Origin: Thelephora terrestris
Lineage: Eukaryota > Basidiomycota > Agaricomycetes > Thelephorales > Thelephoraceae
Reading direction: 5' to 3'
Length of the DNA stretch: 64,000 bases
NCBI GenBank assembly: GCA_015956445.1
Contig: WIUZ02000020.1
Coordinates: forward strand, 248,001-312,000
Shown piece by piece: positions 21,370 through 63,175 of this stretch. The translations under genes and the position numbers were made by a program. The notes beneath the pieces were generated by a model. The model had not been told where the DNA came from and did not search any database. It saw only the letters and a program-made list of their open reading frames with translations. Every line of letters starts with the position of its first letter. The first letter of the stretch is position 1.

Positions 21370-22170
21370 TCAGGCACCAGGGACATCCCGTTGTCTCCCA
21401 CGCAGAGCTGACATTCTATGTCCGAATTCCAATTCTTCAATCAAACCCAGCCAATGTAATGACCTCTCTACAGAAGATGCGGTCTTAGCACTTTACTCCC
21501 TCAAAGCCCTTACAACGCTGGGTTGGAGCAGGGAGTACGGAGCAACAATGAAAGTGACACCGGAGAAGTGGAGTGTTTAGGAATTGCATGAATGTGACGT
21601 TCTTTCTGACCTGATGCGGGGTATGAGTCGGCGACCGAGTGGTCGTAAACGCATGTGCGTCCGGGTTGGGCGGGGGCTGTGCGTTGCATAAATCGGGTGA
21701 AAATCGACGGCCCGACAATGTACACTCCAAGGGTACTAGGAGAACAAAGGGGGTGAGATCGCATTGTTGGTGCCTACTCACCGATCGGAGTATTGAACGC
21801 GCTATGTACCGCGATGGATATGTTTGGTATTAGATGCCTGCAACAGTACGACCACGTCGAAAGCCTTCTTGCACGTGTGATGCTTATAAGCAACTACTGC
21901 CCTTGGGTGGAAGATCAGCGAGGGTTGATACGGAGGGAGTTAGGCTTACGAATAATTTTCCCGAAGAGGACCGGAGTCCACGATTTTATCTTTTGATTTT
22001 CTTGTTGTACTCTATGTATGCGACCCGTGCGGGATTTTTTCGGCATGTATGAAGAGTACTGTTTGAGCTCTACATAATTCGCTGCACCCGACAGTGCCTC
22101 AGTCAGTAGTTACAACACAAAGGCGGGTGAAAACATACCAGGGAACAGTCCCATCTATCAGCGGAATTTT
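21370..22170 (+). repeat. Dispersed repeat, copy A, ending in an ABP1 3'-end fragment
   Basis: Matches the region downstream of ABP1 (copy B, about 46.8-48.1 kb) in the same orientation, and copy C (57.3-58.2 kb) in reverse. Shared blocks include 'gatgcggtctt', 'gcactttactcc', 'acccgtgcgggat', 'ttcggcatgtatgaagag' and 'cataattcgctgcacccgaca'. Positions about 22062-22165 correspond, on the minus strand, to the last intron and final exon of ABP1 (GLFP / ANYVEL), so this copy arose by duplication of the ABP1 3' end with its downstream DNA. Copy A keeps about 75 bp that are deleted from copy B. No coding capacity seen. Confidence 0.75.
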
Positions 22171-26712: not shown

Positions 26713-28130
26713 CTACGGCAAGGGGTTCGGGGAAACCACGAACTTGTGCCTATGAAGTACGCATCTCATCATCTCCATGAAATCCTCTCGCTTGGACTTC
26801 GGGACCCAATCGCTCGCGTCAAGGAGTAGTTGAAAAGCTAGCTTGAACGATCTGCGATCCGAGGGTTCTTCGTGTATTTTCTCGACCAGAGGGCCTCTAA
26901 AACAAGGCTCGCTCAAAAAGCGCTCCAGGAAGTTCTTGTCCTCGATTTCCGCCGGGTCGTCTGTCTCGGCTGAAATGCTATAGTACGGCTTATCGCCGAA
27001 CCGACTGGCCCAGTGGGAGCAAGACATTGAAGCGACATGCTTAGCACTCGAGTGGAGTGGGACATCCTCGAGAAGCGTCTGTATATCCCATTCCGTCTCC
27101 TTGGAAGAATGACAGCTATCCACGCCCCGGAGCCACGATGATAACGGGTTGGGACGGATCATGTGGATTCTACCCTGGTCGTCTTTCCCCATGCAGATGC
27201 AGATGAAGATGAGGCACCAGGAGAAAGACTCGGCGTCGTATCGGTAGACATGTGGGGCCTTGCGCTTGTACCAAAAGTTGTCGAATATGTCCAGAGCCAT
27301 GAACGGCACGCTTCCGATGTCGTAACTTACACCCGGCTTCCCCTTCTGTCTACCCAATCGAATGGAGGCGAGCTCTTTGTGAACCTCCTCTTTTATGACC
27401 GGATCGTACGCCAGGTTTCCTCCGCTGGCCTCCTTGCGCTCGATTCCCACGTCCCACGGTGCCCCGGAGTGACCTGTCACCAACTTAATGCCACAGAATA
27501 GTGCGAGAAACTTGAAAACTCACAAAAGAAACAGGTTTCCTCGTCCAGATGCTTGATTTCCCCCGGATGATGCAGCGTAATGACCCGGAGCACCCGTGTG
27601 CCATTAACGTATAGACAGTTGAAGTGCCGGATGGGGGTATATAAGGACGTTGAATGTGGGGGATTTTTATCCTCCAGTACCTTTGGGATTAGGTGATCCT
27701 CCGCAAGGGTGTTCTTGATCTCGGCTTCCCCTGCCCCGTCGACGAAGCCTGTCTTACTGACCCGTGTCCCTTCTAGGGGGGGAGACTTGGCTTCTTTGGT
27801 ACCCCCTGAGTCCAGATTGCGATCCTGACCGTCACCCTTCGTGGCAACCATGATCGTTGAGCGGCCAGTCAGACTGGCTCTGCCATAGAGAGGGTCACCG
27901 TGGAGAAAGATTGTGACCGTGTCGTCCATGAAAAGGGTGTACACCTACTGGTGACGGTCTCCTGTTGGGTAGATGAGGAATTCTTGAAACCAGGCGAACA
28001 AAGAAAACCTGGTGCCTAATCGAACATTTGGATGATAAGGAGTCGATAGGGGAAGATGACTCAAGGCTTCGTTTGGGTGGCGAGAGATACCATTGCCCAA
28101 AGTCGGACCCACCAAATGTGGCCTCGGATT
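26713..28130 (-). CDS. FunK1-type kinase, copy 2, divergent pseudokinase
   Basis: Two long frames joined by an intron near 27483-27530. The upstream part reads TIFLHGDPLYGRASLTGRST, equivalent to the PYQDP...LVGRST block of other copies, and GTRVLRVITLHHPGEIKHLD. The downstream part has VPFMALDIF, YRYDAESFSWCLIFICICM and a C-terminal helical tail ending FVVSPNPLP. Further 5' sequence to about 28130 (SLFAWFQEFLIYPTGDRHQ) aligns weakly with the FTAFKESP region; possible N-terminal exons (VGPELHQQDC near 28650) are uncertain. The catalytic HRD is replaced by ERKEASGGN and the DFD metal-binding motif is absent, so catalysis is unlikely. It is the most divergent of the five copies, yet its two long frames stay open. 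It could therefore be a working pseudokinase rather than a fossil. Confidence 0.6.
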
Positions 28131-29375: not shown

Positions 29376-30840
29376 TCACTCTACAGGCTCATGGGACTTT
29401 ACAAACTTGTACTTATCAAGCACGCGGTTCACCAATTCAACAAGAATGGGATCGGACCTCGGAATCGGAGCCGGACTGCTAGTACCGAGAACATAAAACA
29501 TTCTCCGACAAACTCGCCTGAACCATTCACGATCTGAGGGTTCTTCGTACACCCCAATCTCCCGAGGGATACAGGTAAATTCTGCCCACGGGCTACCCGA
29601 GGACGTATCAACATCCTGCACGATCGGACTCATGGCTAAGTTTTGATCCCAGAACCGCTTTAACCAGAGGTGGCGAAGCTCCGCAGCGAGGTGCGTGGAG
29701 CTGGTGTGAATGGTAGCCTGCTTGAGAAGGGAGTTTTGCTTGGAAGCTCTACAGTCTGGAGCAGGGCCAAACCATGGTGACAAAGGATTGGGGGAGATGG
29801 TGAAGATTTCACCGTGTTCATCCTTCGTCATGCAGATGCAGATGTAAACGAGACACCAGGCGAAGGATTCAGCATCGTGTCGGTAGAGACGCTTGACCCG
29901 GCCCTTGAATGCCTCCTCGCTGAGTAGATCCAAAGCCATGAATGGTCTATTCCCGGCGTTATCCTTTGCCCTCGAACTTCCCTCCTGCGTGGGCAATCGA
30001 GCCAGGTCAAAGTCGACAAGAACTCCCCGTTTCGTCTTCATGTCGTACATCAGGTTGTCTAGGCGGATATACCTGCGCCGAGCTCCCCTCTGCCAGAGTG
30101 CCCAATGACCTACCAACGGGTGAGCGCTGAGGATGGTCTAGAGAATAAAAGGACAACTCACAGAAGGAACAGTCTAAGAACGCAATTGGCATGTGTTCCT
30201 TGTCCAGGTACTTGATCTGCACCAGATGATTGAATATCGTTCCCCGAAGCCCCCACCCGTCGGCCGCCTGGAGACTGAGAAACTGATGAATGAGTCTCGT
30301 CATGTCCAAATGTTCCGGCTGGCCGATGGTTGTCGGGGTATGATCGTTCACCAGGCTGTTGGTTTCTCCGATTTGCGTTGCATAGTACTTGATGACATCC
30401 ACCTCGCTGACCCGTGTTTGCTCTGGCCAGAAGAACTTAGCAACCAAGTCGTTGGCTCTCTGAATCCCCTCATCCTTGCCTCGCTCTTTCGCCCTGGCGA
30501 TGGCCTTGCTAGCTCCAGCTACGCTTGTCGAACGGCCAACCAGGTTGATTACGGTGATGGGGTCCTGGTAGGGGTAGATCTTGATCAGAACTTTCTCGGT
30601 GAAGGTAGCTTCAAGGTAGATCTGTTTGCCCAGTTCCCCTGCTTGCCCGATGCACGAACCCTCGAACGCGGTGAAGGGTCCCCAGCGCGCCATATCGAAT
30701 TTCCAGATGATCAGAAGGAAGAAGATGCTTGATGATGTCCGACTCGAAGCCCACTGATCGAACAATTCATTGCCTGTCCGACCACGTGTTGCAGATCGTG
30801 CATCCTGAGAAATCGACTCCTGCGTCAGTTGCGCCGTATG
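29376..30840 (-). pseudogene. FunK1-type kinase, copy 3, 5'-truncated
   Basis: Closest to copy 1. Frames 30765-30182 and 30130-29376 are joined by a short intron beginning GTGAGTTGTCC after LDCSFC. Visible blocks: MARWGPFTAF, IKIYPYQDPITVINLVGRST, NDLVAKFFWPEQTRVSEVDV, IAFLDCSFC, GVLVDFDLARL, NRPFMALDLLSEEAFKG, YRHDAESFAWCLVYICICM and the C-terminal YKFVKSHEPVE. The N-terminal exons present in copies 1 and 4 are missing: similarity fades at about 30800-30840. The catalytic loop reads RRRYIRLDN where HRDIS-DN is expected, although DFD is intact. The remaining frame is open, so it may still give a short protein. Confidence 0.7.
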
Positions 30841-31057
30841 AAAAATTGGAGGGTGCGAACTTTAGTAATCGTCGCTGGATTGATTTTCTCCGACTGGCCG
30901 GGGTATATTGCTTGCGATTTTACGGTCACCCGGAGGGAGTTCAGAATAGGATTAGCGGTATAGATTGGCAAAGGAAACCAAGAAAATACCGGTACAAGTC
31001 CAGGAAAGCACTTGATCTACATGATGAACGACGAAGGGTAAAAGAGGTTAGCAGCCG

Positions 31058-37654: not shown

Positions 37655-39839
37655 ATGATTCCCGGCCGTAGGTCTCATGACGTCCGACCGATGACTCCCA
37701 CAGCCGTTCCTTCAGAACGACGACCATCCGCCAGCGAAGAAGCGTCTCGTCCCTCCATCCAAAACCTCACGAATTTGGCCTCAGAGGGTGGAAACGGACG
37801 CACGGAATCTGCTGGTCACTCCGTGGGGGATGTGGTTTCGAGGAGACTGGCTTTCTTAGGCGTTGGAGATCCGAGATCATCGTCCACCACCTCGTTCTTA
37901 CCTCCCAGGTCTCATTCGAGAGTGGATTCGAACGGCACCAGGGACTCGCCGTCGAATATGAGCTCGAGCACTTTGGTGTCCGCTACGAAGCAGCATGCAT
38001 CGCCTTCCAAGGTCCGTACTGATCACATCCACAATCAATGTTGGTCTTCCTGGTTGGGGAGATGTGGCTCTACGCCACTTATTCATCCATCACCAACTGT
38101 GTAGTACCCGCGACACGCCCGCAGTTCGCCTTGATGACGTGTACTGAGACCTAGACCCTGACTCTCGTGACCTTGGTCGACTTGAACTAACGCTGCCTGG
38201 CTATTTACAGGGCTCTATGGGACGCACGTACGATTCGAAGCTCGTTTCGCGCGAGATGCACCGTTTGGGAAACTTCGCCCATCTAAACCCTACCCCTTTC
38301 ACACACGCCACGTCCTCTTCCACAAGTTTACCTCAGAGTGCGTCGAGCATGAACCCTGCGCCCTCTGATAACCCCTGGGGTGCGCTCCACATACACGTCT
38401 TACCGTTGTTCAACGGTGAAGCGTTGCGAGTCCCAGTGTAAGCGACCGCGAGATTCCAAGCTCATAATCCCGTAAATCTAACCGCCTTCTTGTTTCCAGG
38501 GAAGACCTCAACACCCTTGTAAAGAGACACATTCAAAGTGTGGTTTCAGCTGTGCCTTCAAAGGCCATGGCGACTCTCGAGCATGATACATCCGCCCTGA
38601 TCTCTTCAGGAATGGTCACCCTCAATGCGAAGCTCATAGGGATCGATGACGATAAGCTAGTCAGTCGCGTGGTCGAGATCTGGGGTTTCTTCTGGGACCA
38701 AGTTCTCCCATACGTCGAAGGGGTGAGCCGCTGACTCTTTGGTGACCTCACCACACAATCAACAACTGAGACAGCTCTAGGTTTTGCTGCCGCTGCAAAC
38801 CGATCCACTCCTCTCATCTCTCTACAGGGGGAACAAATCCCATCGGCCGTCAGACGCGGCCGGACAGAACTCCAATGGACAGTTGCCCTCACATATGGTA
38901 TCCTCGCCACAAATCGACGTCCGGACGGTGGCGATCCGAGCGTTCCGGGATCAGATCATCTTTCCGATATTCTCCAGGTTGGGGAGTTGTTTGACGGCGC
39001 TGGGTTCTCAAGACCTCGGGTTGGACAAGAATTATCAGCAGCCACGGCTGCAACAAATGTGAGAGCGCATGGATGCGGAGGGATCCCGCTAATTGTGTTT
39101 CTTTCTGTAGGCTATTGGTCTTAGTTTCGCAAGGACGCGAGCGATCGGTCTCGCTCTCGCTGACCGACCCCGATCCACAACCTTCAGCACCGGAAGCGGC
39201 GGTTCAACATTTGCTACGCGCCGTCCGTCTCCCTCTGGCGCAAGTGTCTGCAAATCCAGCTCAAACGTCCTCCGGTCGCACGCCTTCGTTCCTTTCGGAT
39301 AACCAACCTCGAGACCGGCGTGGAAGGATCGCGGAGAAACCGAAGAACATCAAGACGTCGTTGGGTGACCCCGGATCATCTGCCCGGCAAAGGCCTATGC
39401 TCGGACGGAGGAACGCGAATGGAAATTTGGGACACGAAGATTACGCTCTGGTCGAGGACGATGAGTTTGGTGGTGAAGAGACGCCGAGGATTAAGAAGGG
39501 TGGGTGGGCAGGAGTGGTGCAGGAGATATATTTCGACGAAGAGAGGGAGCGGGAGAGGGAACGAGAGTTCTTGGAGTCGTTGCGGTAGGTTTCTTTTCTG
39601 CTCCCCCATCGTTTCCTCACAGCTGAACGGGTTTCTGTAGGAGTCCCGATATTGAAAATGAAAACCACGGGGATCACCGTGGGAGTATTGGTGGATGGGG
39701 CTTGGGTAACCCGCACGAAGAGGATGCGACGAAGAAACACGTGATGGAGGACGAGGACGATGAGCTGGATTGGGATCAAGCGCAGAGCGTGGTTGAGAGG
39801 ATGAAGGTCTACGAGAACGGACACGGGGAACGAAGATGA
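37655..39839 (+). CDS. BIT61: TORC2 subunit, HbrB/Bit61 (PRR5) family
   Basis: Regulatory subunit of the TOR complex 2, which controls actin and membrane homeostasis. Several exons: a Ser-rich N-terminus (MIPGRRSHDVRPMTPTAVPS), then GSMGRTYDSKLVSREMHRLG, WGALHIHVLPLFNGEALRVP, and the HbrB core: EDLNTLVKRHIQSVVSAVPS, VVEIWGFFWDQVLPYVEG, LLPLQTDPLLSSLY, VRTVAIRAFRDQIIFPIFSR, LQQMLLVLVSQ. The C-terminal tail is low-complexity, with a stretch of alternating Glu and Arg near 39535-39570, ending VYENGHGERR. Introns fall near 38011-38210, 38439-38500, 38722-38775, 39060-39110 and 39588-39640. The core is intact. A decayed second copy lies at 62.25-63.18 kb, and a 60-bp fragment lies in the mosaic at 54.3 kb. 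Confidence 0.9.
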
Positions 39840-42394
39840 CGAGAATGTTTCCTAGCGTGGGTTTCTTATTTATTGCTTCGATTGTAACAGATACCGTGGA
39901 CTGTGCTCTGTTCTTTCTTTGGGCCCGGGAAGGGGGGTGGTTTACCTCTTGGTTTTGTTGGTTCGTGTGTATGAACTGCAACGATTGCTTACCGGATGTT
40001 CCTCCTTGTATTCAGTTGCTCAATGTGTGCCAGAAGTTGTCTGGATCGACCAACAAGATGCTGTTTGGTGTACCAATTTTTTTTTTTGGGAAATAACCCA
40101 AGGGCCCGGCACAAGAATTTTTCCATGATTGAGCACCCCGGCACGACTCAATGAGAGGACAAAACTCAAAACTTGATCAATCACCCACCTTGTGAATGGT
40201 TTCTTCCATTCTTGAAGGGTTTTTCATGCTTGTTATTTACACAAAGAGAAGGACACTAATCTCACAACTGTGAAACCAGGAGGTTTGAGGTTACAGTAAA
40301 AATCAATGTTACAAATTGTATTTTTCCCCTACTCTTGTCAACAGCTCTATCAAAAGGTCTACCTTGGAATCTGGGACTGGGATGGCTCTATCACTCGAGT
40401 CAATGAGCAGTTGGTAAACCTGAATAAATGATTCATGATCTGAGGGTTCCCTGTAGGATTCCTTTTTCCGGGCAGTCATCTTGGATTTGGCTGACAACCC
40501 CCCGAGCAGACCTCCTCCTGTGGACAGGTTGCCCTTGTTGGAATCACCAGCTGTACAGTACCACATGATCCAGTAGCAGTGGAGGGAATCAGCAAGATAT
40601 TTACACTCCTTGTGTAGGGGAGTGTTTTTAAGACCCTCCTCTACTTCTACCATCTTGGAGTAAGAGCAGCTACTTATGCTCCCATGCCACGATGACAAAG
40701 GATAGGGGTCAATGACAGAGATGTTCCCGTCCTTGTCCTTACTCATGCATATGCAGATATAGACAAGACACCATGTGAAGGCTTCTGCATCATGTCAGTA
40801 CAGCCATGAAACCATGCCCTTGGCTGCCCCCTCACTCAGCAGGTCCAGGGCCATGAATGTGAGAGTTTTCATGTTGTCCTTTTTGCTTGGACCCCCCTCC
40901 CCTACACTCCCCACTTTGTTTTCTGATTGTACATCAGGTTTCCTATGCTGATATCCATGTGCTGGATTCCCTTCTGCCAGAGTTCCTAATGACCTGCACT
41001 AGATGAGTGCTGAGGAGAGCCCAGAGAAAACAAGGAGAACTTACAGAAGAAATGGACTAAAAATACAATGAAAACATGTTCCTTGTCCAGGTCCTTGAGT
41101 TCCTCCAGACAAGTGAGTGTGATCACCCAAGGCACCCTTGCCCCAGCCATATCCAGACAGAAAAACTTGAATGAGGCTTGTCAAACACATTACACATGGA
41201 GGGTCTGTCTGACCCATGATTGTATGGATGTGATCTTTCACCAGGTTGTTGGTGTTTCCAGTCTGTGCTGCATCATTGGTTACATCCACCTTGCTGATCT
41301 GTGTTTGCTCCAGCCAGTAGAACTTGGCGACCAGATTGTTTGTGTCCTGAATCACCTGGTCACCATCCAGCTTTTTCTCCAAGACGGCGACCCTCTGAGC
41401 TCCAGCTATGCTTGTTGAGCGGCCAGCCAGGGTGATATGAGTGTGGATGGGGTCCTGATAGGGATAGATCCAGATTGGGTCGCCCTCAATAAAGGTGGAT
41501 TCCAAAAAGATCTGTTTGCCTAAGGTTTCACAATTGGCCTGGGGTACGACCAGTCTAACAGGCCAATGGTGGATGTCATCAAAGGTAGTGTATGACTCCA
41601 ATTCGGTGAGAGCCTTGAAATCCTTGTCGAAACACAATCCCTTTCTCAAAAAATCCCTGTGCTCCGGGAACTTCAAAAACTGTACTTCAACCATTGATTG
41701 CAAATCCTTCCATGACATTTTCAAGCCCGACCGTTGTACACGGACATCCTCCTCGTACGAGGCAGGGTACTCCAAGCCGAAGACCCCGATTTTCTCTTGT
41801 AAGCACTTCCATCAAAGGATAACAATGTCCGGTCTGACACAATAATCCTGATCGAGGTTGTGGGACTTCGCCGACAGTTCATGACCATGGACAAAGATGA
41901 TCTGGTTGTTGGGATCATAATCTGGCAATGCATTGGTACGGCATTTCGAAAGCATGTCTGGGGCACAGTTGCAGGCGATGAAAAATGGGTTGTACATGGC
42001 CTTTTCCGGGTTGGATTCAAGGCTGATGATAGATTAGTTCCGTGCCTGAGCAGTCGGATTTGTGGCACTCACAGGTTAGAAACCTCTGTTTTCAGCTTGG
42101 TTCCCTCCTCGTTTGCCACGTCCCTGTTCGTGATGAGACCGCCCTGGAGCTCGCCTTGCAATCGGCAAAGGGAAATTCTTGCATCATTCAATTTGCACAA
42201 CACGAACAGGAACCTGATCATATCGGCCGCCGAGCATTGCTGGGCACTCTCCAAGTTGGCTTTGGTGGGCCCTGCTGTATCCTTCGGCCTGATCGAGCCC
42301 CTTCAGCTATCTTTTCTCCATGGGTCATGGACCATACATCGTGACAATTCTCCATGGGTCATGGGCCATGCAACGTTGTACAACCCATGACCCA

Positions 42395-43440
42395 TGGAGA
42401 AAAGATACCATTGTACAACCCATGACCCATGGGTAATGGAATAGTATCCGTTGCCCATGCCCCATGGGTTGTACAACACTATCCCTTCCCCATGCCTCAT
42501 GGGTTGTACAATGCTATCCTTTCCCCATGGGGCATGGTTTGTACAACGCTATCCAATTCCCATGCCCCATGGGTTGTACAATGCTATCTGTTCCCCATGG
42601 GTCATGGGTTGTACAACGCTATCCGATTCCCATGCCCCATGGGTTGTACAACACTATCCATTCCCCATGGGTCATGGGTTGTACAACGCTATCCGATTCC
42701 CATGCCCCATGGGTTGTACAACACTATCCATTCCCCATGGGTCATGGGTTGTACAACGCTATCCGATTCCCATGCCCCATGGGTTGTACAATGCTATCCA
42801 TTTCCCATGCCCCATGGGTTGTACAACACTATCCGTTCCCCATGCCCCATGGGTTGTACAACACTATCCATTCTCCATGGGGCATGGGTTGTACAACACT
42901 ATCCATTTCCCATGGGTCATGGGTTGTACAACACTATCTATTTCCCATGCCCCATGGGTTGTACAATGCTATCCGATTCTCATGCCCCATGGGTTGTACA
43001 ACACTATCCATTTCCCATGCCCCATGGGTTGTACAACGCTATCTGATTCCCATGCCCCATGGGTTGTACAACACTATCCGTTCCCCATGGGTCATGGGTT
43101 GTACAACACTATCCGTTCCCCATGGGTCATGGGTTGTACAACACTATCCATTCCCCATGGGGCATGGGTTGTACAACACTATCCTTTCCCCATGGGGCAT
43201 GGGTTGTACAACACTATCCATTCTCCATGCCCCATGGGTTGTACAACACTATCTGTTCCCCATGGGTCATGGGTTGTACAACACTATCTGATTCCCATGC
43301 CCCATGGGTTGTACAATGCTATCCATTCTCCATGGGGCATGGGTTGTACAACACTATCTATTTTCCATGCCCCATGGGTTGTACAATGCTATCCAATTCC
43401 CATGCCCCATGGGTTGTACAACAGCATCTTGTGCCCATGG
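42395..43440 (+). repeat. 35-bp minisatellite, left arm
   Basis: About 30 units of 35 bp. Each has TTGTACAA and CCATGG-like palindromes, followed by a block 'CTATCC'. Units differ mainly at fixed CpG sites (AACGCT / AACACT / AATGCT and ATCCG / ATCCA / ATCTG), and by GGGTCAT, GCCCCAT or GGGGCAT before GGGTTG. Near the outer end (about 42376-42450) two units lie in the opposite direction. Because 35 is not a multiple of three and the unit lacks stops, all three plus frames stay open for hundreds of codons. Confidence 0.95.
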
Positions 43441-43699
43441 GGCATCAGTTGCAGAATGGTGTCCTTTCTCCATGTCCCATGGATTATATCACTATTCCAG
43501 GAAAGGAGATACTTTATAAATCAACCATTAGCTGTGTGAATTTGAAAAAATTAGACTCTGTTTGTATGCATGATAGACCATATATCAGTTTGTGGCTCTA
43601 ACCTAATGGAAACTAAACTTAACCTGATAATAGCCACAACCTAATCCTCAATCTAACCTGAGCCAATGTAAACTTGACCCATGAACCTAAGCCTAACCT

Positions 43700-43915
43700 A
43701 ATCCTAAACCTGGTCTAATCCCAAATCTACCCCTAACCTGACCTGACCTGACCTAACCTAACCTAACCTAACCTTATCTGACCTGAACCTACACCTAACC
43801 TAGCCTAACCTAACCTAACCTAACCTAACCTAACCTAACCTAACCTAACCTATACCTAAACTAACCTATACCTATACTAACCTATACCTAACCTAACCTG
43901 GTATGGGCAAACCTA
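43700..43915 (+). repeat. CCTAA pentanucleotide array, left arm
   Basis: Degenerate CCTAA/CCTGA repeats with a pure core of about nine units at 43804-43850. No CpG present. Resembles, but is not, the TTAGGG repeat usual for fungal telomeres. Confidence 0.9.
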
Positions 43916-44519
43916 ACCTACCTATCATGACCTGTTTCAGCCTAATGTCATGTATGCCAGCCAAGACTAACTTCACCCAGTTGCAAACATATGACTTGGG
44001 TCACAGGACCATAAAGCAAACTGCAGTCCCCTCACTCTGTGCCCAACCATCCGATAAGCCCACGGATGCACATATATATCATCAGCAACCCAGCATCATG
44101 CTTATCACCCATGTTCAACCACAAACCACTCTCACCCTTTGTTCTGTGCCATCTCAAAGCCTAACCATAACTCTAGCTCACCCACCCATATTCATCCTTG
44201 TGTGGAATATGTTATAAGTCTATAAACCATATGTTTGTAGGCCACTTGCTTGTGGGCCCAAGGAGGTGGATGAACTTGAGTTGTGGTTTGTCTGTGAGAT
44301 GGCACAGAACAAAGGGTGAGAGTGGTTTGTGGTTGAACATGGGTGATAAGCATGATGCTGGGTTGCTGATGATATATATGTGCGTCCGTGGGCTTATCGG
44401 ATGGTTGGGCACAGAGTGAGGGGACTGCAGTTTGCTTTATGGTCCTGTGACCCAAGTCATATGTTTGCAACTGGGTGAAGTTAGTCTTGGCTGGCATACA
44501 TGACATTAGGCTGAAACAG

Positions 44520-44750
44520 GTCATGATAGGTAGGTTAGGTTTGCCCATACCAGGTTAGGTTAGGTATAGGTTAGTATAGGTATAGGTTAGTTTAGGTATA
44601 GGTTAGGTTAGGTTAGGTTAGGTTAGGTTAGGTTAGGTTAGGTTAGGTTAGGTTAGGTTAGGCTAGGTTAGGTGTAGGTTCAGGTCAGATAAGGTTAGGT
44701 TAGGTTAGGTTAGGTCAGGTCAGGTCAGGTTAGGGGTAGATTTGGGATTA
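44520..44750 (-). repeat. TTAGG pentanucleotide array, right arm
   Basis: Reverse-complement counterpart of the left-arm array. The pure core is longer (about twelve units, 44601-44662), so the two arms have slipped independently since they became identical. Confidence 0.9.
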
Positions 44751-45009
44751 GACCAGGTTTAGGATTAGGTTAGGCTTAGGTTCATGGGTCAAGTTTACAT
44801 TGGCTCAGGTTAGATTGAGGATTAGGTTGTGGCTATTATCAGGTTAAGTTTAGTTTCCATTAGGTTAGAGCCACAAACTGATATATGGTCTATCATGCAT
44901 ACAAACAGAGTCTAATTTTTTCAAATTCACACAGCTAATGGTTGATTTATAAAGTATCTCCTTTCCTGGAATAGTGATATAATCCATGGGACATGGAGAA
45001 AGGACACCA

Positions 45010-46480
45010 TTCTGCAACTGATGCCCCATGGGCACAAGATGCTGTTGTACAACCCATGGGGCATGGGAATTGGATAGCATTGTACAACCCATGGGGCATG
45101 GAAAATAGATAGTGTTGTACAACCCATGCCCCATGGAGAATGGATAGCATTGTACAACCCATGGGGCATGGGAATCAGATAGTGTTGTACAACCCATGAC
45201 CCATGGGGAACAGATAGTGTTGTACAACCCATGGGGCATGGAGAATGGATAGTGTTGTACAACCCATGCCCCATGGGGAAAGGATAGTGTTGTACAACCC
45301 ATGCCCCATGGGGAATGGATAGTGTTGTACAACCCATGACCCATGGGGAACGGATAGTGTTGTACAACCCATGACCCATGGGGAACGGATAGTGTTGTAC
45401 AACCCATGGGGCATGGGAATCGGATAGCGTTGTACAACCCATGGGGCATGGGAAATGGATAGTGTTGTACAACCCATGGGGCATGAGAATCGGATAGCAT
45501 TGTACAACCCATGGGGCATGGGAAATAGATAGTGTTGTACAACCCATGACCCATGGGAAATGGATAGTGTTGTACAACCCATGCCCCATGGAGAATGGAT
45601 AGTGTTGTACAACCCATGGGGCATGGGGAACGGATAGTGTTGTACAACCCATGGGGCATGGGAAATGGATAGCATTGTACAACCCATGGGGCATGGGAAT
45701 CGGATAGCGTTGTACAACCCATGCCCCATGGAGAATGGATAGCATTGTACAACCCATGACCCATGGGGAACGGATAGCGTTGTACAACCCATGGGGCATG
45801 GGAATTGGATAGCGTTGTACAACCCATGCCCCATGGAGAAAGGATAGCGTTGTACAACCCATGGGGCATGGGAAATGGATAGTGTTGTACAACCCATGGG
45901 GCATGGAGAATGGATAGTGTTGTACAACCCATGGGGCATGGGAATTGGATAGTGTTGTACAACCCATGACCCATGGGAAATGGATAGTGTTGTACAACCC
46001 ATGCCCCATGGAGAATGGATAGTGTTGTACAACCCATGCCCCATGGAGAAAGGATAGCGTTGTACAACCCATGACCCATGGGGAACGGATAGTGTTGTAC
46101 AACCCATGCCCCATGGGGAACGGATAGTGTTGTACAACCCATGGGGCATGGGAATCGGATAGCGTTGTACAACCCATGCCCCATGGAGAATGGATAGCGT
46201 TGTACAACCCATGACCCATGGGGAACGGATAGTGTTGTACAACCCATGCCCCATGGGAATCGGATAGCGTTGTACAACCCATGCCCCATGGGAATCGGAT
46301 AGCGTTGTACAACCCATGCCCCATGGAGAATGGATAGCGTTGTACAACCCATGGGGCATGGGAATTGGATAGTGTTGTACAACCTGTGACCCATGGGGAA
46401 CGGATAGCGTTGTACAACCCATGGGGCATGGGGAAAGGATAGTGTTGTACAACGTTGCATGGCCCATGACCCATGGAGAA
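45010..46480 (-). repeat. 35-bp minisatellite, right arm
   Basis: About 42 units in reverse orientation to the left arm. The roughly 20 units nearest the centre repeat the order of sequence variants of the left arm exactly. The outer part has about a dozen extra units in a different order, so the right arm expanded (or the left contracted) after the inversion formed. Minus-strand frames of 430-547 codons here are products of the repeat, not genes. Confidence 0.95.
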
Positions 46481-46789
46481 TTGTCACGATGTATGGTCCA
46501 TGACCCATGGAGAAAAGATAGCTGAACCCTGTGCCTGATCTTGTGTTATAACTAATGATCTAGAATGAAGCAGGTCCGACGCACCCATACTCGCTCAAAG
46601 CGCCGGTTTGCGACTGAGCATGGCTGGCAGAGCTTGAGTTGTGCCCCATGGGACTGTGATAGTAGCCAGATAGGCTTCCCTTCATCTCTCTGTTGTGCAC
46701 TCTTTAAGTCGCTGTCTCTGGTATAGCGTAGGGGCATCTTACATGAATTCCTTTAACCCCCCAGGTTTTCTGGTACTTAGTTTTGTTCG

Positions 46790-48110
46790 GGTGCTTATAT
46801 CAGGACATCCTATGGCTTTGTCCCCCCGCTCACTGTTCCCAGACGTCATCATGATCCACTGCACACTGCCGAACTGAAGCAAAACCATACCGAGAGAGAG
46901 CCCTACATTCTCATCGGCCATCGACAAGTTTGATCCCAGCAAGGCGACCTCCCTAGCGGAAGTTCGCCGTCTTGTGATACGTTGTGGCCGGAGTTGCATT
47001 CCGTGAGGTGAGCCCCTAGTAAATAGTATTTACCCATCAACGCGTGGTGGGCGTGTGCTCATCCACTGCAACAGCCATGGTTTCGAGGTTCCGAGCTCAG
47101 TTCTCGGTTCCGACTCATCCGCCTGCATTGATTTTCTGACCAGTGCCGAAAACACTAAATAAGTCAGTTGTAAAGGGCCTTTCCTAGGCTCACCTAGGAA
47201 AATCCTATTCTTTGTCCTGTTGTCTCTCACGCAGAAGATGCGGTCTTGGCACTTTACTCCACCAAAGCCCTCATGACGCTGGTTTGAAGCAGGGAATACG
47301 CAGCCACAAGGAAAGTGACGCAGAGGAAGTGGAGTGGTTAGGGATGGCATGGATGAAATGTTCTTACTGACCCTATTCGGGGTATGAGTTGGTGGTCGTA
47401 AACGCGTGTGCCTCAGGGGTATGCGGGGCTTATGCGTTATATGAATCGGACAAAATTCGATGTCCCTACCCTGTACACTCGAAGGGTGTCGAACGAAGGG
47501 GGTGACGTGCGTTAGGTCCCCTCGTTGAGAGGACGGAGTAACGCGCTACCACGATGAATGTGTTTGGTGGATGCCTGCAATAATATGGCCCACTCCGTAA
47601 ACGCTCTACGAAGTAGCCGCTGGTCATTGGTGCGTGCTTTTGATCACAATCGCACATACGAAGGGCAGGGTCGAAGCGCACGTGAGGTGTTTCTAACCAA
47701 CTACTGTCCATGAGCGGAAGATCAGCGAGGGTGGATACGGAGGGACTATGGTTTACGAATGATTTCCCCGAAGAGAAACAGAGTCTACGATTTTATCTTC
47801 TGATCTTGTTGAATCATCTTGTTGCACTCCAGTGTATGTGACCCGTGCGGGATGTTTCGGCATGTATGAAGAGGTCAATAGAAAAATTGTATTTGCGAGC
47901 TTTACTTAAAATCCATAGCATACGAAAATCCTTCCAAATTTACTGTTGAAGTTCCACATAATTCGCTGCACCCGACAAAGCCTCAGTAAGTAGTTACAGC
48001 GCGAGAGTGGGTGGAAACATACCAGGGAAAAGTCCCACACTTCCATCAGCCGTCCTTCCCTGCCACCAATCGTCTGACATGGGTTCAATTTGAACAATGC
48101 GTTCTCCCTC
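46790..48110 (+). repeat. Dispersed repeat, copy B, overlapping the ABP1 3' end
   Basis: Shared with copy A (21.37-22.17 kb, same direction) and copy C (57.3-58.2 kb, opposite). It includes the last ABP1 exons, which are functional here, so B is probably the source of the ABP1-containing copies. A segment of about 75 bp present in A and C is missing near 47235, apparently deleted between two short 'cacgcaga'/'acagaaga' matches. A minus-strand frame (46999-46739) has a conserved look (ADENVGLSLGMVLL, FGSVQWIMMTS) that recurs in copy C; I do not recognise it. Confidence 0.7.
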
Positions 48111-52439: not shown

Positions 52440-54242
52440 AACGGGCCATCAGTTCGGAAAACTCCTCAGTTCTGACTCTGCCGCCAGATGTCAAGCGCAA
52501 TGTACGTGACGGTCGTCGGGATAGGCAAAGCAAGAACAGGGGATCGAATCGCCAGAAAGCTCGACCCGGTCTAACGAAGAGGGCGGCGGAAAGGATGCGG
52601 GGAGCCATTAACCTCCTGAGGAATCTGGTCAATATTCAGAACACGATACACGCTGCGAGAGGCTCTCTCGTGCCCCCCGAAATCACTCACTCCGACAATA
52701 ACCTCATTCTGCGCGGTGGGATCCACTCTCTCCATATCTCTTATACAACGCAACTCAATCAGTAGTTAATGTTTCAGGAAGTTCCTCAGAAGCACGGTGT
52801 ACATCAAGTGGTCGGACACTGGGCAGGTTGTCATTCGAACGACGGGCTTCGACATCGTCCCGGATCTGCCTCACTTTCTCCTGGACCTCTTGATCATCCA
52901 GATGTTTGATTTAGAATCACGGGGACCTTTCACCGCGTTCAAGGAGTCACCCCTCACGGAAATCGGGGTCTTACTTAGGCAAACAGATCTACCGTAAATC
53001 TACCTTTATCGAGGGCGCCTCAGTCCGGATCTACCCCTATCAGGAGCCCATCCACACTTATATCAACCTGGTTGGCCGTTCAACGAGCGTAGCTGGAGCA
53101 AGGAGGGTTGCCACCTCGGAGCAAGAGCTAGAGAGTGACCAGGCGATTCGGGATGCCAACACTTTGGTTGCAACGTTTTGCTGGTCGGAGCAAACGCGGG
53201 TCAAGGTGGATATCATCAAAGATGCAGCACAAATAGCAAACACCAATGACCTGGTGAAAGATCACATCCATACGGTCGTCGGCGACCTAGGCACTCCGTA
53301 CAGAACGTGTTCGACGAGCTTCATCCACAAGCTTCTCAAAATCGAAATCCCCGGCGCGCGGGTGCTTCGGGTGATCATATTCGATTCTCCGAAGCAGCTC
53401 GCCGAATGCCTAGACGAGGAAAAAATGGTGATTGCGTTCTCAGACTGTTTCTCCTGTGAGTCGTTCCTGTGTTACCTGGGACTGGCGCTCACCTGGTGGT
53501 AGGTCATTTGGCAGTCTGGCAGGGGGGAGCCCTGCACAAGGTCATTGGCGTAGGAAATCTGAGGTACGATCCGTGGACGAAGCGGGGAGTCCTCAATGAC
53601 TTTGACCTGGCTTGCTTGATCATGCGAGAGGGGAGTTTGAGTGCAAAGGATAACACCGGGACTAGACCATTCATGGCTTTGGATCTACTCAGCAATGAGG
53701 CGTCCAAGGTCAAGCGGCTCTACCGACACGATGCTGAATCCTTCGCCTGGCGTCTCATTTACATCTGCATCTGCATGACGAAGGATAAAAAGGGGGAAAT
53801 CTTTACCATCTCCCCCAATCCTTTGTCATCATGGTTTGGCCCTGCTCCCGAATGTCGAATTTCGAAGGGAAACACCAACAAGATGTAGAAGCTTCTCAAG
53901 CAGGCTACCATTCACGCTGGCAGCTCCACGCGCCTCGCTGAGGAGCTTCGCCACCTCTGGTTAGAGCGGTTCAGCGATCAAATGTTAGCCAAGAGTCCGA
54001 TCGTACAGGATTCCTCGGGGAGCAGGCTGGCACGATTTACTGTCCGTTTCCCTCGGAAGATCAGGGTGTACGAAGAACCCTCGGATCGTGAATGGTTCAG
54101 GCGAGCTTGTTGGGAAATTTTTCGTGTTCTCGATACCAGTAGTCCGGCTCCAATTCCGATGTCCGATCCCAATTTTGTTGAAATGGTGGACCGCGTACTT
54201 GATAAGTACAAGTTTGTAGAGTCCGATGAGCCTGTAGAGTAA
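52440..54242 (+). pseudogene. FunK1-type kinase, copy 5, decayed
   Basis: Closest to copies 1 and 3. Blocks: VIRTTGFDIVPDLPHFLLDL, GPFTAFKESPLTEIG, YINLVGRSTSVAGARR (frame shifts near 52985), EQTRVKVDIIKDAAQI, GARVLRVIIFDSPKQLAECL, GVLNDFDLACLIMREGS, GTRPFMALDLLSNEASK and YRHDAESFAWRLIYICICM, ending FVESDEPVE. The first exons found in copy 1 are missing: about 950 bp are lost between the thymidylate kinase relic and position 52630. The catalytic loop is HKVIGVGN in place of HRDIS-DN. A TAG replaces TTG near 53886, ahead of the C-terminal tail. Dead gene. Confidence 0.8.
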
Positions 54243-54288: not shown

Positions 54289-54640
54289 GGATGTATCGTG
54301 CTCCAGTCGCCATGGCCCTCGAAGGCACAGCCGATACCACTCTGAACTAGCTATGGCCGGGTGCTTCGGGTGATCGTATTCAGATCATTCGCTAGAACGG
54401 AATCAGGGGCCTCTGCAGGGGGATTACTGCGCCTGGTCTTCAAGACATTGGTTATTGTTCTTAATTGGAGAGCGCATTGTTGAGATTGAACCTGTGTCAG
54501 ACGATTGCCAGTCGTGGCAGGGCAGGACTGCTGATGGAAGCGTGGGACTTTTCCCTGGTACGTTTCCGCCCACCCTTGCGTTGTAACTCCTTGCTGAGGC
54601 TTTGTCGGTGCAGCAAATTAGGTGGAACTTCAACGTTTCA
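54289..54640. other. Mosaic of four duplicated gene fragments
   Basis: Joined end to end: 54289-54350 is a reversed piece of BIT61/HbrB (around 38530-38595, 'gtcgccatggcc', 'aaggcacagc'); 54359-54381 matches FunK1 ('gggtgcttcgggtgatc'); 54381-54462 matches carrier repeat 2 (51247-51328, 'cggaatcaggggcctct'); 54465-54640 matches the last SH3 exon and final intron of ABP1 in reverse (48110-47945, 'tgtcagacgattg'). The block directly follows the 3' flank of FunK1 copy 5. Confidence 0.8.
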
Positions 54641-54819
54641 ACAGTAGGTTCAGGGGGGGCCGCATATGCTATCAACTTTAAGTAACGAACATAAATAAAC
54701 TTCTTCCATTGACCTCTTCATATACACCGAAAGATCATGTATGCGCAGAATACACCCAAACACAATAAGAAAATCAGGATAATACAAGGTCTTGGACTGT
54801 TCAGGTCAACCGTCGACCT

Positions 54820-57171
54820 CTAAATGGTGGGGACGCGTGTACAATGGAAGGTGGTGGGGTAACATGTGGTAGTCCGCGCTCGTGATCTGGCACGACGTGA
54901 CGTAGTAAAAAGTCTCCTCCATTGTGATGGCGGTACGGAACAAGCATCACCCTTTAACTTCATCTGCCTCTTCATCGCTCGAGAGCGAACCCAATTTCCG
55001 TGTTGAAGATGGAAAAGGGTCTGCACGAATCTCTTCGACAGGGGAACTGGGAGATAGTCAGCATATAGACCTCCACGGACACATGAGGTAGAGAACGACG
55101 GAACATACACTAGGACCGAAAGATCCCAAACGCTGTCGCAATCTTCTAGACCCTCGTGTACTTGTGGAGGGAGTGGCACCCATGCGCTCGAGGCCCGTTC
55201 CAGACACTCAAGTACATCCTCAATGCTCGGTCGGCTCTGCGCTTGAGTCGCCCAGCACAGACCCAGCATTCTCCATAGATCGTCTGTAAACCACACACCC
55301 TCCGCCCCTTCCGGCCTGGCTGGGTGTTCACCATCGCTGATCTTCCGCATGGCAATGTATTCCTTGAACAGAGCGAAGGGAACCTGGCCGCTGATCACTT
55401 CGTAGATGACCATCCCTAACGCATAACAATCCGATTCCTTGGCCGGGCAACTGTGATCGAGGCCAAACTTCTCTGGGTACAGGAGCTCTGGACTCATCCA
55501 TCGCATTGTCCCACCTTTAACGACGGAGCTTGAAGCTGTGAAATATGTGGGGTCCGAGAGGAATGTAAGAAGTCCAAAGTCCGCCAGACGTGCACGTCCA
55601 TCCTGATCGATCAGGATGTTCGCCTTCATGAAAAGCACGTTAGAACGCAGGGCGGAATTTTCACTTGAAGTCATACCCCCTTCAGATCCCCATGGATCAT
55701 TCCCTGGCTGTGGATATATGCTAGCCCCCTGGCGACGCCTTCGAGCTATCAGATTGCGTCGTCAGTGACAGTGGAAAGTGGGAGAAACCAGGCCCCACAA
55801 GCTCGAACCGATTCACTTCCCAATGCGCCTTGACGAATTCCTTGATGTTCCCGTTTGTCATCCATTCCGACACCATTGCAAATCCATCACCATCCATTGT
55901 AGCGCCTAAGAGGGACATCACATTCGGGTGGCGAAGAGAATTCCATGCCACGACCTCCTTGCAGAACCTCTAGACAGGTCAACATCAATCTACGCCTTTG
56001 GTAAGCTCGCGGTAGCTCACACTCGCAACCTTGGCAAAGTCGGTGGTAGCGTAAAGCCTTAGTACCTTGACCGCAACATCGGAGCCTTGGAACTGTCCCT
56101 TCCACACGTCTGCGAACCCCCCACGATACAGCGGAGCATCGAATCGATTGTAGCAAATCGGGATTTGCAATGCTCTCGGAAGCAAAGCTTGGCGGCCGCA
56201 TATCCAGTATAACACTGCCAAACACTTCCCTCGGAGGCGCTGAGGGAGATCTTGGAGATCAAGGGCCTAGGTATTGAAATATTGAGAGCGACGGAGCCGA
56301 GAAGAAAGGCGATAAGTCCCTGCCTCGGGAGGGAAAAAGTGGGAGCGAACCTCATGTACCACGTTGATAAAGGTCTGAGCGATGTCTCCGCAGAGGTTGC
56401 GGAGCATCTTTACCTCATCCACACTCGTGAAGATCTCATTAATGACAGAGATGACTTCATGCGGGGGAAAGGTGCGACTGATTAAACGTCCCAAAGCGGG
56501 TGCGTTTAAGCCGGGAGCTAGGACAGCCAGCTGGGACACAGGCTGTGGTTCGTTATTAGGACTAGTCCGTTCCTGGTTTTCCTGTGTGTGACCATCAACG
56601 GGCGTGTGCCACTGGGCGGCAGCAATTTCAGCGGGACGACCCACCTGTCTCCCTATACGCATGCCCTCACTCCTGAATCCGATTAACTTGGGGATTGTGC
56701 ACGCTGTGAGACTAGTAGGGGTTTGAAGCACCTTGGCGATCGAGCCGTCAGGCATCTGTGCCAGAACACCCATGGGGGTGGTGATAGTAATACACGATGT
56801 TTCGATGTGATATCCGTCTGGTAGAAAGACGTTCAAACGTTCAATCAACTCAGATTCTTCACGGAAGAGCATCAACAACCGCATGATCATTTCAGACGGA
56901 TCTAAGCTACTCGTTTTCAGAGTTGTATCCGTTGAGCATACCTTTGGAACAAAACTCACAAACCCTTCGAGAAATCCAGTATAATTTCCAAAAATCGATC
57001 GTAAAGCTCTGGTCTCCGAGTCTCCCGAAACCGGAGCTTGACGAGGTCCAGGTAATTGAGAGCGTCGGTGAGGTTGAGCGGTTGCGCTGCTCGTTTTCTC
57101 ATTTCCAGCGTTGTTGTAGTTTGAGACAACATGAGCGGTTGCGGATCCTGGCAGGCGCCTTGGACGCTCAT
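54820..57171 (-). CDS. TKL-type protein kinase with an N-terminal PAH (Sin3-like) domain
   Basis: Minus strand, many exons. N-terminal part from ATG 57171: ALNYLDLVKLRFRETRRPEL, YDRFLEIILDFSKG, then across an intron (donor after AAGGGTTT, best acceptor GAGTAG near 56905) DPSEMIMRLLMLFREESELI and ERLNVFLPDGYHIE: a complete paired amphipathic helix domain as in Sin3. After a linker comes a helical part (VISVINEIFTSVDEVKMLRN). Next is the kinase typical of agaric TKL genes: CGRQALLPRAL, YRGGFADVWKGQFQGSDVAV, AWNSLRHPNVMSLLGATMDG, GLAYIHSQGMIHGDLKG|ANILID (intron inside), LADFGLLTF, GGTMRWMSPELLYPE, DCYALGMVIYEVISGQVPFA, LGLCWATQAQSRPS. HGD replaces HRD, as is common here; DFG and APE-like SPE are intact. 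The C-terminal end is uncertain. One gene is the simplest reading, but two adjacent genes are possible. Confidence 0.7.
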
Positions 57172-57299
57172 GGCCGTGTAAAAGGTCGGATGGGTCGCTT
57201 TGAGGCGGTCGCCCTGAGGCTGGGCGGAGGCCCGGTCAAAGCCGCGCGTGACTGCCTCACACTCAAAATTTCGCGTCCGCCCCGCCTCTAAATCCGAGG

Positions 57300-58245
57300 C
57301 TGAAATCCAGCGTACACCAGGCAGATCCTGTCATTTGCGCGACAATGATTCAAAAGCATGCACCACTGACCAGCAGTGGACTCAGGGCCAATCGCCGCCC
57401 CAGACCTCTCAACGAGAGAACCTAACGCACGTCACCCCCTTCGTTCGATACTCTCCGAGTGTACAGGGTAGGGCCGTCGATTTTTACACGATTTATGTAA
57501 AGCCCAACCACCACTCAACCCGGACGCACAGGCGTTTACGGTCACTAGGTCGCCGACTCAAACCCCGAATCAGGTCAGAAAGAACATCTCATCCATGCCA
57601 TCCCTAGCCACTCCGCTTCCTCGGCGTCACTTTCATTGTGGCTCCGTACTCCCTGCTCCAACTCAGCGTTATGAGGGCTTTCTGGAGTAAAGTGCCAAGA
57701 CCCCATCGTCTGATAGAAAGGTCTTTACATTGGCTGAGTTTGGTTGAAGGATTGAAAGTTCGGACAAAGAATGTCAGTTCTGCGTGAGAGACAGCGTTAC
57801 AACGAATAGGATGTGTCCCTAGGTGAGCTTGAATAAGAAAGACCATTGACGACTGACTTCTTTAGTGTTTTCCGCACTGGTCAGAAAAGTAATGATTTGG
57901 AACTGAGCTCGGAACCTCGGAACCTCGAAAATTCGAAACCACGGCGATTGCAGTGCATGAGCGCACGCCCACCACCGTGACGCGTTGATGGGTGGATACT
58001 ATCACTAGTGGCTCACGGAATGCAACCTCGGCCGCGATGTGTTACAAGACGGCGACCTTCCGCTAGGCGGAGATCGCATTCAAGTTGTTGAGACCGAACT
58101 CGCGGCAGGGTAAGACGGCCGATGAGAATGTAGGGCTCTTCCTCCGGATGGTTTTGCTCATCATTTCACTTGAGTTCGGTAGATTGCAGTGGATTACGAT
58201 GACGTCTAGCAACAGGCTGAGGGAAAGAGCGGATGGTGATTCCTG
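57300..58245 (-). repeat. Dispersed repeat, copy C
   Basis: Reverse complement of the copy A/B sequence, without the ABP1 part. Shared blocks: 'gacgtgcgttagg', 'ttggagcagggagtacggagc', 'cagccaatgtaa', 'gacggcga-cttccgct' and 'ggccgatgagaatgtagggctc'. Copies A and C keep the segment that is deleted in B. Base exchanges are frequent, so the copies are not recent. Confidence 0.75.
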
Positions 58246-62249: not shown

Positions 62250-62642
62250 TGGCGGTCCTGACGGCACGCACGCACTGTCCAAAATTCGCCTCACGAAACG
62301 CGCAGTATGGGGAGCTTTGCCCATCTATACACAACCCTGGGGCCCCCTCGTGTCCATGTCTTGCTATCATTCGACAACAACCTTTGCAAGTCATTATGTA
62401 AGTGACTATGAAACCCTGACACCACAAGCGCGACAATCTGATTGTGTTCTGGTTTTCAGTGAAGACCTCAACTCTCCGTAACGACATATGCTCAGAGAAT
62501 GGTGCGGTCCGCTCCTTCCAAGGTCTTGGCAACGTTGGAGCATGATGTATCTGCGTTAATCTCCTCTGGAGTGGTCATCCCCAATGCCAAGCTTACGGGG
62601 GATGGTGACGATAAGCTCGTGGGATCAGGCTCTTCCAGATGT

Positions 62643-62675
<33 letters not shown>

Positions 62676-63175
62676 GAGTGTTTGATGTCCTTGCCGCCCT
62701 CGCCACATAATCAACGACCGACACCTCCATTTTTGCTACCCTGCAAACCTTCCCTCTCGTCACAGGGTAAACGAATTTCATCGGACATCAGGTGCGACCG
62801 GGAATTACTCCAATGGACACTTGGCTTCACATCCACTATCCTCTCCGCGAATCGATGATCAGACGGGGGTGATCCCAGCATCTCGGGGTCAGGCCATACC
62901 CCCTCAATGTTATCGAGGTGGAGCGACTGTTTGGCGTCGTTGGGCGCACAAGACATCGGGTTGGACGAGAACTGTTAGCAGCAACGGTCGCAGCAAACGT
63001 GAGAGGAGAGATCCTACTGTTTACACATCGTCCTCTTAGGCTGTTGGCCTTGGTTTTCAAAGGCGTGAGCATTCGTTCTTGTTCTCGCTGAACGACCCTG
63101 ATCCACGACCTTCAGCACCGGAAGCGGCCCTACAACACCCGCTGCGTGTCCGGCTCCCGCTGACTCTTGGAAGGT
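62250..63175 (+). pseudogene. Decayed second copy of BIT61/HbrB
   Basis: Collinear with the functional gene at about 38215-39260, same strand. Matching blocks: 'ctttgcccatct', 'aacccctgggg' as 'aaccctgggg', 'gaagacctcaac', 'ccttccaaggtcttggcaac' for the AVPSKAMATLE region, 'gacgataagct', the exon border before the donor GTGAG, 'cctgatccacgaccttcagc' and 'accggaagcgg'. Introns are retained. Several frame changes and stops are present, for example directly after EDLNS. The Ser-rich part of the N-terminus is missing. Sequence divergence is high, so it is old. Confidence 0.85.
62644..62674 (+). repeat. Poly-G tract of 31 bases
   Basis: Lies exactly where the functional BIT61 gene has GAAGGGGTGAG, the end of the exon coding PYVEG and its splice donor. 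A four-base G run seems to have grown by slippage after the copy died. The length may also be affected by assembly error. Confidence 0.9.

Follow-up and report, generated by a model that had tools for sequence, protein, structure and literature searches.

A palindromic insert of 4,238 bp lies at positions 42295–46532 of a 64,000-nucleotide stretch of the Thelephora terrestris genome (contig WIUZ02000020.1, positions 248,001–312,000; hereafter the window), where it interrupts a locus resembling FunK1 genes. Its two strands have almost the same sequence when each is read 5′ to 3′, and it stands between two exact copies of GCCTGATC. Comparison with the surrounding sequence supports its interpretation as a palindromic element that inserted into the FunK1-like locus with duplication of the target site. 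The parts of the element, of the interrupted locus and of the corresponding paralogous site are as follows.

40312–42294, minus strand: main part of the FunK1-like locus, from tblastn similarity to FunK1 paralogues in the window, which match PF17667
42287–42294, no strand: left copy of the target duplication, GCCTGATC (a length of 7 bp would also fit)
42295–42301, no strand: asymmetric motif at the left end, GAGCCCC (7 bp), lying beyond the inverted repeat
42302–42383, plus strand: left outer inverted repeat, 82 bp, with no difference from its right-hand counterpart
42376–43456, plus strand: left 35-bp array, 31 cores of the TTGTACAA type (one variant core at the inner end included), outermost one to two units inverted
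42750–44157, plus strand: left inner arm zone, which overlaps the array and the CCTAA zone and hardly differs from its counterpart on the right
43598–43960, plus strand: left CCTAA-rich zone
43732–43899: left CCTAA/AGGTT array
44158–44290, no strand: centre between the arms, 133 bp, with about 30 bp at each edge still partly alike
44291–45717, minus strand: right inner arm zone
44552–44734, minus strand: right TTAGG array
45010–46453, minus strand: right 35-bp array, 42 cores (one variant core at the inner end included)
46445–46526, minus strand: right outer inverted repeat, 82 bp
46527–46532, no strand: asymmetric motif at the right end, CCCTGT (6 bp), lying beyond the inverted repeat
46533–46540, no strand: right copy of the target duplication, GCCTGATC
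46541–46824, minus strand: 5′ part of the FunK1-like locus beyond the insert, with similarity that is weak yet above controls at 46541–46650 and 46748–46824
18896–18903, plus strand: empty-site equivalent GACCAGGG in a FunK1 paralogue

Alignment of the left arm to the reverse complement of the right arm confirmed the 4.2-kb foldback element at the boundaries proposed in the first-pass annotation, and the 8-bp duplication reported to flank it is exact. The accompanying description of the ends as inverted repeats holds in part. TTCAGCTATC is indeed inverted on the two sides, at 42302 and 46517–46526, but the repeat stops 6–7 bp short, with GAGCCCC and CCCTGT separating it from the duplication. 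Counting the duplication as 7 bp makes both end motifs 7 bp long, and the two counts are indistinguishable from sequence. Within the window GCCTGATC occurs four times on the plus strand and once on the minus strand, the two copies at the element included. Two random 20-bp stretches of the window had an 8-mer in common in 579 of 200,000 draws, a control in which the arrays were included and some near-overlapping draws were skipped yet counted in the total. Outside the element the corresponding figure was 490 of 200,000.

The annotated composition of the arms, 35-bp tandem units plus a TTAGG array in inverted arrangement, was likewise recovered. The two outer arrays have different numbers of units in a different order; the inner zone is near identical. 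Over 1,408 aligned bases this zone shows 2 mismatches (99.9% alike), besides a single 15-bp indel within the CCTAA array; gaps of 1 and 3 bases at the zone edges are a product of the limits chosen for alignment. A unique centre of about 140 bp had been proposed; the centre is indeed short, but because its edges are still partly alike, the part with no partner is nearer 70 bp. Telomere fusion was rejected by inspection as a source of the CCTAA/TTAGG arrays, which face the wrong way and have ordinary arm sequence around them.

Units of the 35-bp arrays are spaced at exactly 35 bp in 29 of 30 left intervals (58 bp in the other) and in 41 of 41 right intervals, and Tandem Repeats Finder (TRF) placed the arrays at 42419–43423 and 45043–46453. 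Two self-complementary parts are present in each unit: GTTGTACAAC, replaced by TTGTACAATG in some units, and CCCATG-NNN-CATGGG. The loop NNN was CCC (13), GGT (7), GGG (5) or CCT (1) in the 26 regular left units, and CCC (17), GGG (13) or GGT (8) in the 38 regular right units. The CCC and GGG forms of this 15-mer are exact reverse complements of one another and both occur within the same array. Flipping of the 15-mer is not general, since the reverse complement of the GGT form is absent in the array orientation among regular units. The outermost one to two left units gave a better fit to the reversed unit (score 61 versus 40). Three adjacent units, treated as single-stranded DNA, folded better than 200 of 200 shuffles (z −4.3, for one stretch). 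Mean identity among units within an arm was 82% on the left (28 units) and 87% on the right (40 units). Compared with these values, the near identity of the inner arms indicates that copying or conversion between the arms postdates formation of the arrays.

An orthologous FunK1 gene had been suggested as a place to look for an empty site; an equivalent of one was found in a paralogue of the window that begins near 18.8 kb. This gene is without the insert, and the repeat search picked up no 35-bp array there. In a local alignment with the paralogue, similarity of the left flank sets in precisely at the initial base of the duplicated 8-mer (GATCAGGC versus GACCAGGG), with scores of 284 for this flank alone and 313 for the joined flanks. 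The right flank is less conserved than the left. Aligned to the adjoining 115 bp upstream in the paralogue, it scored 35. None of 1,000 shuffles and none of 896 random stretches of the window scored as high, 28 being the maximum in each control. The alignment leaves the last 15 bases before the junction uncovered on one side and the last 14 on the other. Left-flank similarity that begins precisely at the duplication, together with an insert-free paralogue, makes a real insertion with the annotated boundaries the best reading. Among the other FunK1 copies, the 52–53 kb region aligns only to 46748–46824, and the alignment of the 30-kb copy does not span the junction. The 27-kb region was rejected as an empty site because its junction-spanning score of 33 is at the random level (46 stretches: mean 33, maximum 43, with 25 of 46 reaching 33).

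PF17667, described as a family of fungal protein kinases, has matches in the window at 19649–21150, 29379–30137 and 53460–53885. A near-miss lies at 26716–27519 (22.5 bits, just under the cut-off of 24.1), and a weak one at 30010–30861. The scanned fragments of 40312–42294 themselves gave no Pfam match. Insertion into a FunK1 intron had been proposed in the first-pass annotation: the FunK1 context is upheld by the similarity to the paralogues, but the intron is not established, as splice signals in the paralogue are ambiguous. Mismatches by codon position (23/71, 12/68 and 16/68) showed no clear pattern.

Pfam scans covered all 108 stop-to-stop open reading frames (ORFs) of at least 120 aa in the window (as 40 segments and 73 ORFs); no transposase family was reported among them. 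The element had been annotated as devoid of a transposase, and this was borne out by its eight ORFs, which were scanned singly and yielded neither a transposase nor any Pfam match that passed the cut-off. Six had sub-cut-off matches only and two had none. The best of these matches, to PF24410 (20.6 bits versus 23), fell in a 564-aa open frame running through the 35-bp array (44865–46559, minus strand), and all were read as chance. A coding role for the arrays, suggested by open frames of up to 564 aa, was rejected because a stop-free 35-bp unit yields long frames by itself, and the 564-aa frame is probably a by-product of such a unit. The window contains no further copy of the element. A 17-base unit core, a 21-base unit pattern and a 22-base end pattern each had 0 matches in viral contigs. 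Seven single matches of the 17-base core in bacterial genome contigs were discarded, being fewer than the roughly estimated 30 or so expected by chance. A FunK1 fragment gave six pattern matches in viral contigs, with no confirmed relative among them. Searches of the window with Rfam (gathering threshold) and ARAGORN returned 0 matches.

Several other repeats were observed around the locus. The segment 46833–48107 reaches into the end of a neighbouring cofilin-domain gene, which probably also contains an SH3 domain. Partial copies of this segment, 73–84% identical, lie at 54467–54736, 57405–58215 and 21471–22153, two of them just beyond a FunK1 copy. The interval of about 2.7 kb between two such pieces (54736–57405) holds a protein-kinase ORF and an ORF of 322 aa. 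The stretch 38487–39237 is about 67% identical to 62447–63162; the ORF scanned singly there, 38995–39585, had no Pfam match. A run of 31 G residues at 62644–62674 is possibly a weak point of the assembly.

In our view the insert very probably represents a foldback-type DNA transposon of the non-autonomous kind, mobilized in trans by a transposase encoded elsewhere. Such a transposase would bind the element ends, with the subterminal 35-bp units likely acting as extra binding sites. Excision would be followed by insertion through a staggered cut, with about 8 bp of the FunK1-like locus duplicated in the process. The arrays may have changed afterwards through slippage and unequal exchange, and one inner arm may recently have served as template for the other, for instance in gap repair or template switching. 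Several observations weigh against this interpretation. The element is known from one copy only, and at each end the inverted repeat leaves out the outermost 6–7 bp. Scores for the junction with one or with two copies of the 8-mer retained were equal (56 and 56; 43 with the spacers also retained), so that the paralogue itself is no proof of a single 8-mer at the old site. No usable empty site was present in the other FunK1 copies of the window.

The asymmetric ends resemble those of Tm1, a Mutator/Foldback element of root-knot nematodes, and are a hint of a Mutator-like mobilizer. With a Mutator-like (MULE, for Mutator-like element; Phantom-like) transposase, the element would be a fungal counterpart of Tm1/Rehavkus-type foldbacks, an assignment to which we give slightly less than an even chance. 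MULE duplications of 8–11 bp are reported, and minisatellites are listed for Rehavkus and the aphid Phantom (PMC6446971); short non-inverted motifs outside the inverted repeat are described for Tm1 and reportedly for other Mutator-like elements (PMC3169594). However, many of the listed MULE duplications are 9 bp (PMC6446971), against 8 or 7 bp here, and foldback anatomy occurs with different transposase classes (PMC3169594), while the likeness in our case is anatomical. Mobilization by a hAT, KDZ (Zisupton-type) or P-type transposase is a more tentative possibility. Duplications of 8 bp are described as usual for hAT and as made by Zisupton, both of which occur in fungi (PMC12730594). Read inwards, the right end contains CAGGG, in keeping with the hAT end pattern. 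To bring the left end (GAGCCCC) into line with this pattern, a base would have to be inserted and further changes made, and the terminal bases do not match it at both ends. By inspection, a hAT reading would also require a mismatch in the duplication.

Two further explanations dispense with transposition. An inverted duplication of a minisatellite through replication or repair errors, with the flanking 8-mer common by chance, would account for inner arms that are 99.9% alike, as is typical of recent inverted copying, and GCCTGATC does recur elsewhere in the window. We nevertheless judge this origin improbable: an 8-mer common to both ends at such close range is rare by chance in both controls, the outer 82 bp are identical despite the differing arrays next to them, left-flank homology to the paralogue begins exactly at the duplication, and the paralogue has no 35-bp array. 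An assembly artefact, in the form of a chimeric foldback read or a mis-sized array, is suggested by the near-perfect inner palindrome and the short centre, which resemble a foldback read. It is made highly improbable by the differences between the arms in unit number (31 versus 42), outer arrays and outer ends and by the 15-bp indel, and by the assignment of both flanks, through comparison with the paralogue, to a single FunK1-like locus.

Long palindromes within genes could be prone to breakage and give rise to double-stranded RNA. Galileo foldback-like elements are described as generating chromosomal inversions in Drosophila. If fungi also carry foldbacks, this anatomy arose in, or spread to, another kingdom, and through the Tm1-like asymmetric ends it could then be tested directly whether Mutator-type transposases have produced foldback anatomy repeatedly. 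A more far-reaching proposal, which we regard as unlikely, is a lineage of fungal foldbacks with arms formed by long arrays of a self-complementary 35-bp unit, its core seemingly flipped in place, and in which hairpin RNA spanning the arms could silence the element's own family.

A search of open-licence full text brought up no fungal foldback family in the titles and abstract openings of the matches listed, which is not proof of absence. In excerpts of papers naming fungi, the term foldback referred to RNA hairpins (PMC9757828) or to Drosophila (PMC6431247, PMC9659126), and a survey of fungal transposons (PMC4522978) does not contain the word. Foldback elements with tandem-repeat arms are known in animals and were not found for fungi in the open-licence literature searched.

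Drosophila FB and sea urchin TU have arms of short tandem repeats like those described here, but in animal hosts. Our element shows the traits of the foldback (FB-like) structural class: a target site duplication (8 bp and exact, with an empty site in the paralogue), long inverted arms built of tandem repeats and unequal unit numbers between the arms. Tetris of Drosophila virilis is also an apparently non-autonomous foldback with tandem repeats in its arms, but these repeats are of about 220 bp and the host is a fly (PMC4079207). Galileo, a P-superfamily foldback of Drosophila, resembles the element in its long inverted arms with internal tandem repeats unequal between arms, in arms lengthened by recruiting internal sequence and in its two-arm copies; it differs in a 7-bp duplication, repeats of about 210 bp, arms of up to about 1.26 kb and an insect host (PMC3573991). 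Arm lengthening by tandem repeats or recruited internal sequence, and secondary transposase sites within the repeats, are discussed for Galileo in the same paper. Tm1 likewise combines a target duplication and 7-bp asymmetric motifs outside the inverted repeat with arms of tandem units unequal in number between the ends, and it has copies resembling miniature inverted-repeat transposable elements (PMC3169594). Its asymmetric ends are called unusual, though they have been seen in other Mutator-like elements (PMC3169594). Our element has such non-inverted motifs inside the duplication, seen in a single copy only, and its duplication of 8 bp (7 possible) falls within the 8–10 bp of Tm1/MULE foldbacks. 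Tm1 units are of about 14 bp, with 1–9 per arm, its duplications are mostly of 9 bp and its host is a nematode (PMC3169594), whereas the element in the FunK1-like locus has a TTAGG zone and self-complementary units of 35 bp, numbering about 30 in one arm and 42 in the other.

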